The position numbers and the translations under genes are program-made. The notes beneath the pieces are model-generated. The model had not been told where the DNA came from. It worked only from the letters and a program-made list of their open reading frames with translations, and did no database searches. 39,780 nt of DNA from Aquificota bacterium. Lineage in GTDB: Bacteria > Aquificota > Aquificia > Aquificales > Hydrogenothermaceae. The first letter of the stretch is position 1. Each line of letters opens with the position of its first letter. The stretch spans positions 1-39,780 of the forward strand of contig JAADDZ010000018.1 of assembly GCA_013153635.1 (NCBI GenBank), read 5' to 3'. Below are positions 20,504 to 27,816 of this stretch, piece by piece.

Positions 20504-22738
20504 ATGAAATCCCTTAAATATCTAACTATGTTTTTGATTTTGGCAGTTTCATCTAGTTTTGCCGCAGACCTGTCAGGGAAAATTATACTATCTCCATATA
20601 TAGGTTATTACTTTTTTGGGGAAGAGAGAGACCACAAAAATAGACCTATCAGAAGTTTTAAAAACAGTTACGAATATGGACTTAGGTTAGAATACTTTCT
20701 AACTCCACGTATAAGTATTTTGGGAGGATACGGAAGGATCCCTACAAAAGAAGAATACAAAAAAAATAAATGGAAAAGTAAAGATGTAGACAGAATCTTG
20801 TTTAATTTTATGTATAACTTTGCTTTTATGGGTATAAATAGAGTTCCTTTTGTTTCTCTAGGGTTTGAGCAGACAGCTGGAGATTGGGGAGTAGAGTTTG
20901 GAGGAGGTCTTAGATTCCTATTTAGAAAACAAACCATGGCTTTGAGATTTGAGTTAAAAGATGTATACATACTAAGAGGTATTAACGATTATACCGCTTT
21001 GGTTAGTTTAGATTTTCTATTTGGTGGAAAACCTTACATAAGTGACGAAGATAACGACGGTGTTCCTGATGAGAAAGATTTTTGTCCCAATACTCCCCGT
21101 TGGGTAATCGTAGATGAGAAAGGTTGTCCAGTGGACAGTGATAAAGACGGAGTACCAGACTATTTAGATAGATGTCCTAAAACTCCCCACGGCGCTCCAG
21201 TTGATAATGATGGCTGTCCAGTTGACACAGATAGAGATGGAATACCTGACTATCTAGACCAGTGTCCAGATACTATGGAAGGTGTTAACGTAGATGATTA
21301 CGGTTGTCCTTTAGATTCAGACAAAGATGGCTTTCCAGATTATTTAGATAAATGTCCCGGAACTCCTGAAGGCGCACCTGTAGATGAGTATGGTTGTCCT
21401 TTAGACAGTGATGGAGATGGGGTACCTGATTACAAAGACAAATGTAAGAATACCCCAAGAGATGTGATTATAGATGAAGAAGGTTGTCCTTTAGACACAG
21501 ATAAAGACGGCGTTCCAGATTATTTAGACATATGTCCAAGAACTCCATTAGGGGCAGTAGTAGATAAACAAGGTTGTCCTGTAGATGAAGATAAAGACGG
21601 TGTTCCAGACCACATAGATGAATGTCCAAATACCCCAACTGGAGCGCCAGTGGATAAAAATGGCTGTCCTGTAGATGAGGATAGAGACGGAGTACCAGAT
21701 TACTTAGATAAATGTCTAAACACACCACAGGGAGTAGTAGTAGACGAAAACGGTTGTCCAGTGGACAGTGACAAAGACGGAGTGCCTGACTATCTTGACA
21801 AATGTCCTAATACAGCACAGAACGTTCCAGTAGACAAGAACGGCTGTCCATCTGACAGTGACAAGGACGGAGTACCAGATTACTTAGACAAGTGTCTAAA
21901 CACACCACAGGGAGTAGTAGTAGACGAAAAAGGCTGTCCAGTTGACAGTGATAAAGACGGAGTACCAGATTACTTAGATAAATGTCTAAACACACCACAG
22001 GGAGTAGTAGTAGACGAAAAAGGCTGTCCAATGGACAGTGATAAAGATGGAGTACCAGACTATCTAGATAAGTGTCCTAACACTATTGAAGGAGCAGTAG
22101 TAGATGAGAAAGGTTGTCCATCTGATAGTGATAAGGACGGAGTACCAGACCATATAGATGAATGTCCAAATACCCCAACTGGAGCGCCAATAGACAAGAA
22201 TGGCTGTCCAGTAGACAGTGATAAAGATGGGATACCTGATTATGCAGACCAATGTCCAAACACGCCAGAAAATATACCTATTGATGAAAACGGTTGTCCG
22301 TTAGACAGCGACAAAGATGGAGTGCCAGATTATCTAGATAAGTGTCCTAACACTTTACCCGGGGCAAAAGTAGACAGTAACGGTTGTATAATATCAATAC
22401 GACTGAATATACTTTTTGACACAAACAGTGCAGTAGTAAAACCAGAATACTATCCAGAAATTGAAAAGCTAGCGATTTTCTTAAAAGAACACCCAGAGAT
22501 AAAAATAGAGATTCAAGGACATACAGACAAAAGACCAACCAGTGATTACAAATACAACATGATACTATCCCAAAAGAGAGCAGAAGCGGTTAAAAGAGTA
22601 CTCGTAGAGAAATTTGGAATAGACCCAGACAGGATAATCGCAAGAGGTTACGGTTATACAATGCCGATAGCTTCAAACGATACAGAAGAAGGTAGAAGAT
22701 TAAACAGAAGGGTAGAGGTGATAATCATAAGAGAATAG
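20504..22738 (+). CDS. OmpA-family outer-membrane protein with 15 TSP3 repeats
   Basis: A 744-residue surface protein. It has a signal peptide (KSLKYLTMFLILAVSSSFA), an N-terminal beta-barrel of about 155 residues with aromatic strands, fifteen tandem 30-residue thrombospondin type 3-like repeats (about 180-629), and a C-terminal OmpA peptidoglycan-binding domain with IQGHTDKRPTSDYKYN and RRLNRRVEVIII. Each repeat has calcium-type DxDxDG clusters and two Cys that could form disulfides. The protein should link outer membrane to cell wall through a long, probably calcium-stiffened spacer. Such proteins usually have far fewer repeats. GGGAGG lies 5 nt before the ATG; TTGATA at 20458-20463 is a possible -35. 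Divergent from efp. Confidence 0.93.
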   Translation: MKSLKYLTMFLILAVSSSFAADLSGKIILSPYIGYYFFGEERDHKNRPIRSFKNSYEYGLRLEYFLTPRISILGGYGRIPTKEEYKKNKWKSKDVDRILFNFMYNFAFMGINRVPFVSLGFEQTAGDWGVEFGGGLRFLFRKQTMALRFELKDVYILRGINDYTALVSLDFLFGGKPYISDEDNDGVPDEKDFCPNTPRWVIVDEKGCPVDSDKDGVPDYLDRCPKTPHGAPVDNDGCPVDTDRDGIPDYLDQCPDTMEGVNVDDYGCPLDSDKDGFPDYLDKCPGTPEGAPVDEYGCPLDSDGDGVPDYKDKCKNTPRDVIIDEEGCPLDTDKDGVPDYLDICPRTPLGAVVDKQGCPVDEDKDGVPDHIDECPNTPTGAPVDKNGCPVDEDRDGVPDYLDKCLNTPQGVVVDENGCPVDSDKDGVPDYLDKCPNTAQNVPVDKNGCPSDSDKDGVPDYLDKCLNTPQGVVVDEKGCPVDSDKDGVPDYLDKCLNTPQGVVVDEKGCPMDSDKDGVPDYLDKCPNTIEGAVVDEKGCPSDSDKDGVPDHIDECPNTPTGAPIDKNGCPVDSDKDGIPDYADQCPNTPENIPIDENGCPLDSDKDGVPDYLDKCPNTLPGAKVDSNGCIISIRLNILFDTNSAVVKPEYYPEIEKLAIFLKEHPEIKIEIQGHTDKRPTSDYKYNMILSQKRAEAVKRVLVEKFGIDPDRIIARGYGYTMPIASNDTEEGRRLNRRVEVIIIRE
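21041..22390 (+). repeat. Tandem array of fifteen 90-bp units (TSP3 coding repeats)
   Basis: Fifteen in-frame 90-bp units, consensus VDSDKDGVPDYLDKCPNTP followed by GAPVDENGCP, run without interruption. Most units differ at many silent sites, but some are nearly the same in DNA. Units 8 (from 21671) and 11 (from 21941) share 64 identical bases in a row, units 10 and 11 share their last 48, and units 7 (21581) and 13 (22121) share 36. This points to recent duplication or gene conversion within the array. Confidence 0.95.
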
Positions 22739-23197: not shown

Positions 23198-24661
23198 ATG
23201 TCATTATTTTACAATCTGTCTTTAGGAGGGCAAGCTCTTTTATCCAACAAAAGGGCTATAGATATAACTAATAACAATATCTCAAATGTATTTACTGATA
23301 GTTATTCACGGAAACTTCCTATCTTTACAGATGTCTCTACAGGTGGAGTAAATTTAGAAACTGTAAAAAGAGTTTATGATGAGATTCTCTTTCAAAAGGT
23401 TATAGATACTAACCAAGCTTTGATAAGCGACGAAAATTATAAAGATTTATTAGTACAGGTTGAATCTATATTTAATGATATTCAAGGTTCAGGTTTCTCA
23501 ACAGCGTTAAATGAGTTTTTTAACGCTTTTCACCAAGTCTCTCTAAATCCAAATGATATTACTGCTCGTTATGATGCAATAACAAAAGCAAAACAGTTAG
23601 TAGGTAGGATAAGGAACAGTTACGATAATTTAGAAAAAACTCAAGATTATATAAAATTTTCTCTAAAAGACCAGATAAACAAACTGAACTCTCTCACTGT
23701 AGAGCTTGCAAAGATAAACAAAAGTATAAAGCTCTCTCCAGAAGAGAAGAAACTCCACTATCTAGATGAAAGAGATAGAGTACTAAAAGAGATTAGCTCT
23801 TTTATAGATACAAAAGTAATCTTTAGAGAAGATGGGACAGCAGATGTTTTTACTTCGAAAGGTTTTTCTTTAGTTCTCTATGACAAAGCACACCAACTCA
23901 ATGTTATGCCTCCTTCATCTTTGGAAAACCAAGATGAAATAACGATAAGGTGGGAAGGTGTAGATTTGACAGATAATTTTTCAAATGGGAAGATAGGAGG
24001 TTTTATAAAAGGATACAGATTTGTAAAAAATGTAAAAGCAGACCTAAACGATTTTGCATCTCTACTAGCTTTGAATGTTAACAAGATACATAGACAAGGG
24101 TACGACTTAGAAGGAAATACAGATATAGATTTTTTTGGTATAGACCCAGATTCTTCAAAAGAGTTTATAGATGCTTCTAACATATCTTTGGCTTTTGAAG
24201 AACCAGAAAAAATAGCCGCCGCAATTGATGCTACTTTGACAAATTCTGACAATAGAAATGTAAAAAAGTTAATAGAACTAAAAGACAGTATAGATGGTGT
24301 TTTGAGTTCCACAGAAGAAAGCACCTTGATTTCAGGAGGGGAGCTGGTCATAGGTGCGATAAAGTATAAAGTTGAGACTCCTTCCAACCTTACGTTACTA
24401 AAAGAGCGGAATTTTGGTGAGCTATACAATATATCATTTACAACTAAGATAGGTTTTGAGTTAGAAACTGTTAAAAAAAGAGAAGAGCATAACAGATTCT
24501 TATTTGAGGCGGCTGACCAGCAGTACAAAGAGAAAAGTTCTGTAAATATGGACGAAGAGCTGATAAATCTAACAAAACTCCAAAGAGCTTATCAAGCATC
24601 AGCTCGTATAATCAGTGTAACTGATGAGCTACTTCAAACAGTCCTAAATATGGCTAGCTAA
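23198..24661 (+). CDS. flgK: Flagellar hook-associated protein 1
   Basis: FlgK (487 residues) joins the flagellar hook to the filament junction. The N-terminal D0 helix has the family motif ALLSNKRAIDITNNNISNV, and the C-terminal helix has VNMDEELINLTKLQRAYQASARIISVTDELLQTVL, typical of hook-associated proteins. The centre is variable. It lies 50 nt after the flgN-like gene and behind a sigma-28-type promoter, so it is likely a late flagellar gene. flgL does not follow; instead a convergent gene overlaps the last 8 bases. Confidence 0.93.
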   Translation: MSLFYNLSLGGQALLSNKRAIDITNNNISNVFTDSYSRKLPIFTDVSTGGVNLETVKRVYDEILFQKVIDTNQALISDENYKDLLVQVESIFNDIQGSGFSTALNEFFNAFHQVSLNPNDITARYDAITKAKQLVGRIRNSYDNLEKTQDYIKFSLKDQINKLNSLTVELAKINKSIKLSPEEKKLHYLDERDRVLKEISSFIDTKVIFREDGTADVFTSKGFSLVLYDKAHQLNVMPPSSLENQDEITIRWEGVDLTDNFSNGKIGGFIKGYRFVKNVKADLNDFASLLALNVNKIHRQGYDLEGNTDIDFFGIDPDSSKEFIDASNISLAFEEPEKIAAAIDATLTNSDNRNVKKLIELKDSIDGVLSSTEESTLISGGELVIGAIKYKVETPSNLTLLKERNFGELYNISFTTKIGFELETVKKREEHNRFLFEAADQQYKEKSSVNMDEELINLTKLQRAYQASARIISVTDELLQTVLNMAS

Positions 24662-25337
24662 GCTTTCTTCTCCAAAATAGAGCTATACCTACAGCGAACA
24701 GTAGAAGTAAGGTAATATCTTTTTTGGTGGATAACCGACACCCTATAATATCGTCAGGGTCTTCTCCACCATCTTCAATCTCTTCTGGAATTTTGTATTC
24801 TGGATAGTCTGGACAAAAGTCATCATAGTCGAACAAGTCCCCGGTTGGAGATGGAAGACCAACTCCTTCTAAGTCTGCTTTTTCTTCTTTATAATCGTTC
24901 TCTAACAGGTCTTTTATGAGGTCTTCTAAGTTATCATTACCAAAGTACTTCACCACTAGTTTTGCATCTCTTGTACCTTCACTTTTAGGTCTAAATACTA
25001 CTTTTATGCTACAAGCATCTCCAACTGCCAAAATCTTATCTTTGCAGTTGTCTTCTTTTATGTAAAAATGCTCTTCGTCATCACCGTCTATGTAAGATTT
25101 TTTTATATATACAGGTATTCCTCCATCATTAGTAACCATAAAAGGAAATGCTGGACTTTCACAGTCTTCTATGATAGCTCCAAAATACCATTTATCTGGA
25201 AAGATTTTTATGCTTACACCAGCATCTACATCTATATTGTCAAATATATCTCCCAAATCTGCTTGTTTTGATAAATCCAAAGAAAAGGCTTTGTAAATAA
25301 TTAATAAAAATAAGAATAAGAATATATGTTTTTTCAT
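24654..25337 (-). CDS. Choice-of-anchor-D-like surface protein with Cys-TM-Arg tail
   Basis: A 227-residue exported protein. It has a signal peptide (KKHIFLFLFLLIIYKAFS), then an immunoglobulin-like ASH/choice-of-anchor-D domain (about 43-160) with WYFGAIIEDC, FMVTNDGGIPVYIKKSY, DACSIKVVFRPKSEGTRDAKL. An acidic linker follows, then a C-terminal tail of GC (199-200), a membrane helix (208-222) and Arg-Arg (223-224). That tail resembles tripartite CTERM sorting signals with a conserved Cys, which in other bacteria are processed by dedicated intramembrane proteases. No such protease is in this window. Start at 25337 is set by AAAGGAGG; an ATG 33 nt upstream lies before that site. Function unknown. 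Confidence 0.75.
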   Translation of the reverse strand: MKKHIFLFLFLLIIYKAFSLDLSKQADLGDIFDNIDVDAGVSIKIFPDKWYFGAIIEDCESPAFPFMVTNDGGIPVYIKKSYIDGDDEEHFYIKEDNCKDKILAVGDACSIKVVFRPKSEGTRDAKLVVKYFGNDNLEDLIKDLLENDYKEEKADLEGVGLPSPTGDLFDYDDFCPDYPEYKIPEEIEDGGEDPDDIIGCRLSTKKDITLLLLFAVGIALFWRRKLS

Positions 25338-25341
25338 AAAA

Positions 25342-25350
25342 GCCTCCTTT
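25342..25350 (-). promoter_or_regulatory. Shine-Dalgarno that fixes the surface-protein start
   Basis: Minus strand AAAGGAGGC lies 4 nt before ATG 25337. An in-frame ATG at 25370 would place it inside the gene and bury the signal peptide behind extra charged residues. Confidence 0.75.
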
Positions 25351-25366
25351 TTGAATTTAGTATAAA

Positions 25367-26500
25367 TCAAAAAAATATTTTTACAATCTTGTTTTCAAAG
25401 TTTCTAAATGTAGCATGGCTCTTCCCTTTTTCTATGAGGTATTGAGGGAATATAGGAACTTTTCCTAGACCTCCTTCCAAATCAACAGCGTATATAGGTA
25501 TCCCTAATCCAGAGAGTCTTCCCCTCAAGTAATCCATTATTTTTATGCCTTTTTCTAAATCTGTACGAAAATGTAGTACTCCTTTTACAGGGTCGCAGAA
25601 AAAGAGGTAGTAAGGTTTTATTTTTGTTCTTAACAGGTCTCTCATCAAGGTTTCTATAGTTTTTTCGTCGTCGTTTATACCTTTTAGTAGTACTGTTTGA
25701 TTTAGAACAGGTGTTCCTGTAGATAGTATCAATTTGACAGCTTTCTTTGTAATGTCTGTAACCTCATCAGGGTGATTAAAATGGGTTACTATCCAAACTT
25801 TGTCATATCTGTCAAAAAGCTCAAGTAGTCTTTCATCAAAAAATCTATAAGGGTTGACTACTAACTCTCTACTCCCTATCCGTATAATATCTATATGGTC
25901 AATTTTGTATAGATTATCCAAAATGAATTCTAACTTTTTATTAGGAAGAGTTAAAGGGTCTCCTCCAGAGATGAGAACCTCTTTTATATTTTTATTTTTT
26001 TTTATGTACTCAAACATTTCTTCGTATTCTTCTTTGGTTCTTGCTCTTTCTTCTTCTAAAAACATTCTTTTTCTCATACAATGTCTACAGTAGACACTAC
26101 AAAAATTTGTAGCTCGAAAGAGAACCCTATCAGGGTATCTGTGGGTTATCCCTTGGATAGATGGCATTTTGTCTTCTAAAAAGGGGTCTAGAGAGCCAAG
26201 TTTTTGAACCTCTTCATCTAGCTCCTCTAAAGAAGGGAATATCTGTTTCCGTATAGGGTTTTGTCTATCTTTAAAATCCTTTATCAAGGATAGATAGTAA
26301 GGAGTAGTCCCAAAATGGAAAATATCTGCTGTCTTCTCAAAAGCTATTTCTTCTTGTTTAGATATATTTAGAACATTTCTTAGAGGGAGAAGAGATGTTA
26401 ATCTGTTTGCTATCTGCCATTTCCAGTTTTGCCAGTTTTCTAAACTAACATCTTCCCAGATTTTTATCCTTTTCCAAAACTGTTCATCTAGATACTGCAT
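25367..26500 (-). CDS. kamA: Lysine 2,3-aminomutase family radical SAM/PLP enzyme
   Basis: A 377-residue enzyme. The radical SAM cluster motif is CSVYCRHC (Cys134, Cys138, Cys141), followed by VLISGGDPL for SAM binding, and the PLP lysine is probably Lys347 in DLEGGLGKVP. Two aspartates that hold the lysine substrate in clostridial KamA appear kept (FFCDPVKG and AVDLEGG). As I recall, EpmB lacks the second one, so a true lysine 2,3-aminomutase making beta-lysine is more likely than an EF-P-modifying EpmB. Beta-lysine could serve as an osmolyte precursor. The membrane-protein gene ends 1 nt after its own start side and is probably cotranscribed ahead of it. Confidence 0.85.
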   Translation of the reverse strand: MQYLDEQFWKRIKIWEDVSLENWQNWKWQIANRLTSLLPLRNVLNISKQEEIAFEKTADIFHFGTTPYYLSLIKDFKDRQNPIRKQIFPSLEELDEEVQKLGSLDPFLEDKMPSIQGITHRYPDRVLFRATNFCSVYCRHCMRKRMFLEEERARTKEEYEEMFEYIKKNKNIKEVLISGGDPLTLPNKKLEFILDNLYKIDHIDIIRIGSRELVVNPYRFFDERLLELFDRYDKVWIVTHFNHPDEVTDITKKAVKLILSTGTPVLNQTVLLKGINDDEKTIETLMRDLLRTKIKPYYLFFCDPVKGVLHFRTDLEKGIKIMDYLRGRLSGLGIPIYAVDLEGGLGKVPIFPQYLIEKGKSHATFRNFENKIVKIFF

Positions 26501-26906: not shown

Positions 26907-27027
26907 GTTTATAAATTCAATATCCAAATATTCTAATATGCTTATTATACATCATTCATATATAGTTATATTAGATAAAATGTTTAATACATTTATTTAA
27001 AGTTTAAATATATACCTATAAATGCAT

Positions 27028-27046
27028 GTTTTAGAATTACTAAAAC
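27028..27046. repeat. Inverted repeat in the leader of the outer-membrane protein gene
   Basis: GTTTTAG and CTAAAAC form a perfect 7-bp dyad with a 5-nt loop (AATTA), ending about 20 nt before the ATG at 27067 and just ahead of the ribosome site. It could be an operator or a small mRNA hairpin. This about 160-base gap is the largest intergenic region in the window; I see nothing else definite in it. Confidence 0.4.
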
Positions 27047-27066
27047 AACTTAACAAGAGGGAAGAT

Positions 27067-27816
27067 ATGAAAAAATATCTATTGATTACTACACTTTTTG
27101 CCTCATCTTTAGCTTTTTCTTACGAGTCAGAACTTTCTATCGATTACTGGACACCTATACCTGACGGTTACCTAAAAAAAGATGGAACTAAGATAGGTTT
27201 AAAATCCATGCTAAAGCTGTCTACAGCAAAAGATTTTGGAGGGAAATTACTCTTTAAGGAGAAAGAGAGTAGTAACCTCCCTAATATAGTGTTTATGTAC
27301 ACACCTATAAGTTTCGAAGGGCAAGGCACAGCAGATAATCCCTTTTCTTATGGAGATATTACTGTAAACAGTGGAGAAGATTTTGAGGCGTTAGTAGAGT
27401 ATACCAGTTATGACCTTGGGTTTTTGTGGGACATTGGTCATCTAAGAGAAAAAACAGAGGATAGACTTGATTTTAGAGCTGGTTTTAGTATCAGATACAT
27501 AGAAAGGAGTCTAAAAATAAAAACAGGTACAGCTCAAACTACAGAAAATCACAAAGACCTAAAACCTATGTTAGACTTGGAGGCAGAAGTAGAAGTTTTG
27601 CCAGTCCATCAAGAGTTGAGAGCAGAGATAATATTAGAAGCCCAAATATACACAAATGGAAATGAATATCTGTTTGATATTATCGATTCTATAAGAATGA
27701 ACTATAAGAACCTGTTTGCAGAGTTTGGTTATAGGGAAGAAAAATATAAGATGGCAGATGGTATGAAAAAAGTATCTGCTTCTGGTATTTTTTGGAGTTT
27801 AGGGATACATTTTTAG
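27067..27816 (+). CDS. Outer-membrane beta-barrel protein (TIGR04219-like)
   Basis: A 249-residue exported protein. A signal peptide (KKYLLITTLFASSLAFS) is followed by alternating strands, and the last residue is Phe in SASGIFWSLGIHF, the usual C-terminal signal for BAM-assisted barrel insertion. The aromatic/Gly pattern (SYDLGFLWDIGHL, FRAGFSIRYIERSL) fits a small barrel of the TIGR04219 type, which has no known function. The ATG at 27067 has AGAGGGAAG upstream; an ATG 45 nt earlier would spoil the signal peptide. The gene ends 2 nt before queA. Confidence 0.75.
   Translation: MKKYLLITTLFASSLAFSYESELSIDYWTPIPDGYLKKDGTKIGLKSMLKLSTAKDFGGKLLFKEKESSNLPNIVFMYTPISFEGQGTADNPFSYGDITVNSGEDFEALVEYTSYDLGFLWDIGHLREKTEDRLDFRAGFSIRYIERSLKIKTGTAQTTENHKDLKPMLDLEAEVEVLPVHQELRAEIILEAQIYTNGNEYLFDIIDSIRMNYKNLFAEFGYREEKYKMADGMKKVSASGIFWSLGIHF

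Follow-up and report, generated by a model that had tools for sequence, protein, structure and literature searches.

A candidate Cys-type C-terminal sorting signal on exported Aquificota proteins and its genomic association with CPBP proteases and type II secretion

On the minus strand of the window (the whole stretch of DNA analysed, 39,780 nt from a draft genome of the Aquificota family Hydrogenothermaceae), the gene at positions 24654–25337 encodes a protein of 227 aa, P0001, which ends in Gly-Cys, a short linker, a hydrophobic helix and Arg-Arg. An earlier note on this DNA read the ending as a CTERM-type signal. The locus raises the question of whether this tail is a sorting signal or an ordinary membrane anchor and, if a signal, which protease and export machinery would handle it. 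We consider it probable that the tail serves as a modular, Cys-containing sorting signal at the C-terminus (MYXO-, Synerg- or JDVT-CTERM-like), used across Aquificota with a route made up of Sec, a CPBP protease and the type II secretion system (T2SS).

The P0001 open reading frame was confirmed as a complete CDS, and the layout first described for it (signal peptide, GC, short linker, 15-residue helix, RR) was found again in the sequence and in hydropathy. An in-frame TTG at 25370 is an alternative start; the ATG at 25337 is preferred because a Shine-Dalgarno sequence, AGGAGG, sits 5 nt before it at 25343–25348 (minus strand, as are all P0001 features given here). The signal peptide (residues 1–19, MKKHIFLFLFLLIIYKAFS, 25281–25337) has a hydrophobic core, with a hydropathy peak over residues 1–23, and an AFS cleavage-like site; inspection of its sequence found no lipobox Cys. 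At the other end of the protein an acidic linker (residues 174–199, 24741–24818; net charge −13 over residues 161–199) closes with Gly199, the first residue of the Gly199-Cys200 motif (24738–24743) that holds the invariant Cys of the tail. A spacer of seven residues, RLSTKKD, leads from Cys200 to the 15-residue hydrophobic helix (residues 208–222, ITLLLLFAVGIALFW, 24672–24716), after which the protein ends in RRKLS. Arg223-Arg224 (24666–24671), which correspond to the RR or R conserved among the tails, would form the basic cytoplasmic end. A single-sequence AlphaFold2 model of P0001 (mean pLDDT 39.8) was confident only in the signal peptide and in a helix spanning residues 204–226, and was uninformative on the domain in between.

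That domain, at approximately residues 45–173 (24819–25205), appears to be an ASH or choice-of-anchor-D-like Ig domain, weakly supported by profile. The NCBIfam model choice_anch_D (NF012200) matched P0001 with E 4.7e-6 and 27.1 bits against a cut-off of 45, and Pfam PF22544 with 17.5 bits and E 0.005 against a cut-off of 25.5. The nearest relative of P0001 in its own genome is a choice-of-anchor-D paralogue on contig C22, which matches NF012200 better and is 39% identical to residues 28–175 by BLAST (E 2.8e-22). Members of the choice-of-anchor-D family (NF012200) ride on varied C-terminal anchors.

Upstream of the P0001 gene, at 25367–26500 on the same strand, its operon neighbour encodes a radical SAM aminomutase of the KamA family (TIGR00238, 297.7 bits, over cut-off). 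Both congeneric genomes carry P0001 orthologues, at L076 9020–9697(+) in G075 and at L058 in G074, and G075 also conserves the upstream DUF2231-KamA order with the tail gene downstream of kamA. The Cys is kept in both orthologues, whose tails read IFGCKLGS... and IIGCQLSS.... Elsewhere in the window, 20504–22738(+) encodes a 744-aa protein whose C-terminal OmpA domain matches strongly and whose repeats match thrombospondin-type-3-like families; it is likely an outer-membrane/peptidoglycan linker. At 27022–27816(+), three genes away from the tail gene, lies an outer-membrane barrel related to TIGR04219 (OMP_w_GlyGly; 56.6 bits, below the cut-off of 105); the name of this family hints at GlyGly-CTERM systems.

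P0001 shares its GC-TM-RR/RK end with seven further exported proteins of its own genome: ASH proteins, two subtilases, an SBBP-type protein and a multihaem cytochrome c. On other contigs, the ends of five exported proteins read GGCNFG...RRIRG, GGCSFG...RRFRR, GGGCSYG...RRLKQNF, GGCSFSS...RRVLV and NGCNYS...RRFTIRNMV. A six-tail profile recovered a seventh on an S8 subtilase, and a 32-tail profile (alignment A5) an eighth on the multihaem cytochrome c, all eight being counted at E ≤ 1e-3. Several of these proteins pass or approach NF012200, and the eight carry the tail on unrelated N-terminal parts. In A5 the Cys is invariant (32/32 tails), and the Gly before it and the Arg are each present in at least 90%; the first seven tails recovered from the own genome all have RR. 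The context around the single Cys is G-G-C-[SNT]-[FLY]-[SG]. A signal peptide is thus combined with an invariant C-terminal Cys, one hydrophobic helix and a basic end, recurring at the extreme C-terminus of eight unrelated exported proteins of one genome, which supports the Cys-type CTERM assignment made in the earlier note. The multihaem cytochrome c (L241 4957–7062(−), own contig C9) has 701 aa, many CxxCH motifs and the tail SGGGCTLSSRYTDAGLILSLIAVLGIFIIRKRNN, and is a candidate surface-displayed cytochrome.

If the helix were instead an ordinary single-pass anchor, with an incidental or disulphide-forming Cys and no processing, the acidic P0001 linker, set against the Gly-rich linkers of many family members, and the lack of a detected CPBP in the own assembly would both be accommodated. 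However, plain anchors conserve no Gly-Cys at a fixed distance and do not pair with a T2SS-linked CPBP, and here all 32 tails, borne by unrelated proteins, have the Cys, as do both congeneric orthologues. We regard an ordinary anchor as quite unlikely. The two observations named in advance as counting against a sorting signal were a tail found on no other protein and homologues ending in a helix that lacks the Cys; other proteins do carry the tail, and the congeneric orthologues keep the Cys.

The tail extends beyond this genome. A first profile, built on six tails, found matches in 15 of 136 Aquificota genomes; the refined 32-tail profile found them in 68 of 136 (58 at E ≤ 1e-3) and in 21 of 30 genera. 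The tail family expected in this lineage is therefore present, with eight members in the own genome, and an Aquificota genome may hold up to about nine tail substrates. In the loci examined nearly all tail matches end 0–16 residues from the stop codon, and proteins with a tail match begin with a signal peptide wherever the start is visible. In G049 one protein end occurs twice (L070 2–256 and L074 2–1609): one copy stops after the Cys tail, and the other is an in-frame fusion with roughly 450 additional residues that have a TPR-like part and, at the C-terminus, a barrel-like one, which recalls the internal MYXO-CTERM of MXAN_5598. In G080 a subtilase gene adjoining a CPBP gene (L121 6120–6987(−)) is broken into fragments that retain the tail, and may be a decaying or mis-assembled substrate gene.

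As to the protease, Pfam PF02517 (CPBP) scored over cut-off in 96 of the 136 genomes. The tail was present in 53 of the 96 CPBP-positive genomes vs 5 of the 40 CPBP-negative ones (p 3e-6, uncorrected for shared ancestry), and in 52 of the 93 gspK-positive vs 6 of the 43 gspK-negative ones (Fisher p 2.5e-6, likewise uncorrected); both contingency tables were compiled by hand from the search tables. In forty-three CPBP-positive genomes no tail reaches E ≤ 1e-3, which may reflect limited profile sensitivity or other substrates. Three of the five tail-positive genomes without CPBP are less than 90% complete. In G046 (99% complete) the tail-bearing protein has a lipobox-like N-terminus, and neither CPBP nor gspK was found.

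The candidate proteases are short, 160–200 aa. Fifteen were aligned (A4), with EExxxR, H and HxxxN invariant; Pfam score, catalytic residues and fold together class the family as Rce1-type glutamic intramembrane proteases. An AlphaFold2 model of the CPBP protein (pLDDT 96) gave confident Foldseek matches to CPBP structures only, SpdC (6u0o) and MmRce1 (4cad), at probability 0.98–1.00 and E 0.05–0.2; a PDB sequence search with the protease returned nothing significant, and a search of viral contigs gave no match. Twenty-nine Aquificota CPBPs are grouped together by a branch of SH-aLRT 97. This clade spans Hydrogenothermaceae and Aquificaceae and contains both the T2SS-embedded CPBPs and those of the two congeners, and a 319-aa CPBP paralogue lies outside it, as do the CPBPs linked to lspA in family f5. 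In f5 (L116 6956–7998 in G134; L118 7197–8236 in G133) a different CPBP gene overlaps or abuts a gene that by sequence resembles lspA (signal peptidase II), a pairing that would fit a lipid-linked role.

All 15 proteins in A4 match NCBIfam myxosortase models (MrtS, MrtJ, MrtP and Mrt_core). Among the matches listed, all fall below cut-off, Mrt_core reaching 60 bits against 100, and the equivalog level of MrtX, MrtS, MrtJ, MrtP or MrtC is not reached. The family may work like the Mrt enzymes but fits no curated Mrt family. We rejected this similarity as proof of function and judged it non-specific because the unlinked 319-aa paralogue scores about as well.

Gene neighbourhood ties tail, protease and secretion system together. 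In the own genome a tail-bearing S8 subtilase is the last gene of the T2SS operon gspG-I-J-K-L-M-N, and tail-bearing subtilases stand beside T2SS genes in G104, G078, G047, G101, G025 and G077. In G072 and G073 such a subtilase lies near a gene resembling a prepilin peptidase (assigned by eye). Small CPBP genes are located inside the T2SS operons with a tail-bearing subtilase in G047 and G104, and these T2SS-operon CPBPs match PF02517 with 64.4 and 48 bits (cut-off 22.4). Match coordinates place a CPBP directly downstream of gspK on the same strand in 17 genomes, with 194–227 nt between the profile matches; all 17 cases belong to a single family and are spread over four of its genera. Thermocrinis has the order gspE-gspL-gspM-gspK-CPBP, with a convergent tail-bearing subtilase. 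A tail-bearing gene is found no more than approximately 2 kb from a CPBP in about ten genomes; in the genus of the window the CPBP gene is not adjacent to a tail gene. The co-occurring protease suggested as a check on the signal was thus recovered: CPBP co-occurs with the tail, often beside tail genes and in the T2SS operon of relatives.

A CPBP inside a T2SS operon could do other work, such as T2SS assembly or peptide processing, and lie near tails through a shared relation to T2SS. CPBP proteins vary in function, SpdC (the top fold match) was solved within a peptidoglycan release complex and not as a sorting enzyme, and many CPBP-positive genomes have no tail. Against this, CPBP-tail gene pairs occur away from T2SS operons in Persephonella (14–23 nt apart), G080 and G063. 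Similar Cys tails also adjoin CPBP genes in loci from Planctomycetota, Nitrospirota, Oligoflexales and the gammaproteobacterium Simiduia, and MrtX offers an experimentally supported precedent (PMC11980579). An unrelated task for the protease is, in our estimation, unlikely. Among the loci from other phyla, Cys-TM-basic tails were seen on large proteins near CPBP matches in L143, L145 and L189 (Planctomycetota), L154 and L169 (Nitrospirota), and L159, L163 and L199; several of the tails in other phyla have a mixed acidic and basic end (KRRDARRRR), unlike those of Aquificota.

The earlier note expected a CPBP, rhomboid or exosortase-like protease elsewhere in the genome. A CPBP that co-occurs with or adjoins the tail was found in the phylum and in both congeners (G074 and G075), and none was found in the own assembly, an incomplete draft (96.3% complete, 28 contigs), by PF02517, the A4 profile or direct BLAST. 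In G074 the gene is part of a block serS-...-clp-trmA-CPBP-ubiX-xer (names assigned by eye). For the tested members of this block, the only match in the own assembly was an Xer paralogue with 26% identity. The serS gene is essential in bacteria. Because these neighbours, including serS, are missing too, an assembly gap is the likeliest explanation for the missing CPBP, and a specific loss from this genome was judged less likely. The genes pyrC and radA, located further out in G075, do occur in the own genome, in contig interiors and flanked by different genes; conserved gene order therefore does not reach past the block.

Were CPBP truly lost, a genuine tail might be cut in this genus by another protease, for example the single rhomboid of the own genome (C12:44828–45508); rhombosortases process GlyGly-CTERM tails, which also work with T2SS (PMC11980579). 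The own rhomboid, however, scores 22.4 bits against the rhombosortase cut-off of 84 (TIGR03902) and its gene is not near any tail gene, and we rejected this ordinary rhomboid as the processing enzyme. Since CPBP is kept in both congeners and the absence of the whole serS-clp-trmA-CPBP-ubiX-xer block looks like a gap, we hold processing by a different protease to be very unlikely.

The CPBP-dependent reading places the Aquificota tail among known sorting systems. For MYXO-CTERM of Myxococcota, PMC11980579 ties Cys, CPBP protease and T2SS together by experiment. The tripartite tail (invariant Cys, helix, Arg cluster) is alike in both systems, and the catalytic residues EExxxR, H and HxxxN given there for MrtX are those invariant in the Aquificota CPBPs. 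MYXO-CTERM substrates are described in that source as carried by T2SS, whereas the Aquificota tails are linked to T2SS by genes alone. The systems differ in phylum, in the tail, which in Aquificota has one Cys in the context given above, and in the protease, which is 160–200 aa vs 238 in the MrtX model and scores 25 bits against its cut-off of 180. Placement of the CPBP gene within a T2SS operon is a further apparent difference, not being reported for mrtX in the consulted parts of PMC11980579. The MYXO-CTERM model TIGR03901 gave no match to the own-genome tails tested.

Synerg-CTERM with MrtS (TIGR04564, NF040589) shares a Gly-Gly-Cys tail and a small CPBP of approximately 170 aa. MrtS is the best NCBIfam match of one Aquificota protease and its model matches all 15, yet at 56–66 bits against a cut-off of 130 among the matches listed, and the taxa are distinct; TIGR04564 matches the tail of the C22 paralogue faintly (E 0.63, 10.2 bits, cut-off 22.5). 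JDVT-CTERM with MrtJ (NF033191, NF033192) likewise has a Cys tail and a neighbouring small CPBP. The P0001 tail matches NF033191 faintly (E 0.19, 11.7 bits, cut-off 27), and the Aquificota CPBPs listed as matching MrtJ reach 38–52 bits (cut-off 75). JDVT-CTERM is described as having one substrate beside MrtJ in beta- and gammaproteobacteria (PMC11980579), whereas Aquificota genomes have up to about nine and a T2SS link. GlyGly-CTERM with rhombosortase is similar in being a T2SS-dependent C-terminal signal of equal layout (PMC11980579), but lacks the conserved Cys, and its enzyme is a serine rhomboid protease. The anchoring system termed unreported in the earlier note is therefore new, as far as checked, for the lineage, for a protease subfamily under the curated cut-offs and for the T2SS-operon arrangement; its general kind, myxosortase/MYXO-CTERM, is already known from PMC11980579.

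Comparative genomics supports the tail as a sorting signal, and a route can be proposed for P0001. It is modelled on the MYXO-CTERM pathway as PMC11980579 presents it, so the order of steps is by analogy. The signal peptide would direct the precursor to Sec for export, and the helix with RR would keep the tail in the inner membrane. Cys200, which lies immediately outside the helix, would be modified, most likely lipidated, and a small myxosortase-like glutamic intramembrane protease of the CPBP family would cut after it. T2SS would then take the cleaved protein to the surface of the cell, to be anchored there by the lipid. More tentatively, and with rather less confidence than doubt, we suggest that Aquificota have built the anchoring protease into the T2SS operon (gspE-L-M-K-CPBP), a T2SS with its own sortase in which tail cleavage and export would be coupled physically or temporally. 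One tail-bearing subtilase would travel along with such an operon, and in lineages like the genus of the window the tail would have spread to many surface proteins, a multihaem cytochrome among them.

Taken at this strength, the findings would extend Cys-type CTERM sorting to Aquificota with a candidate protease family that falls under the curated models, and they add a genetic linkage between a myxosortase-like protease and T2SS structural genes. If the reading is true, a compact and probably thermostable protease of approximately 165 aa, paired with a single neighbouring substrate, would become available for studying Cys modification before CPBP cleavage, and the surface-displayed proteins of Aquificota, cytochromes included, would become predictable.
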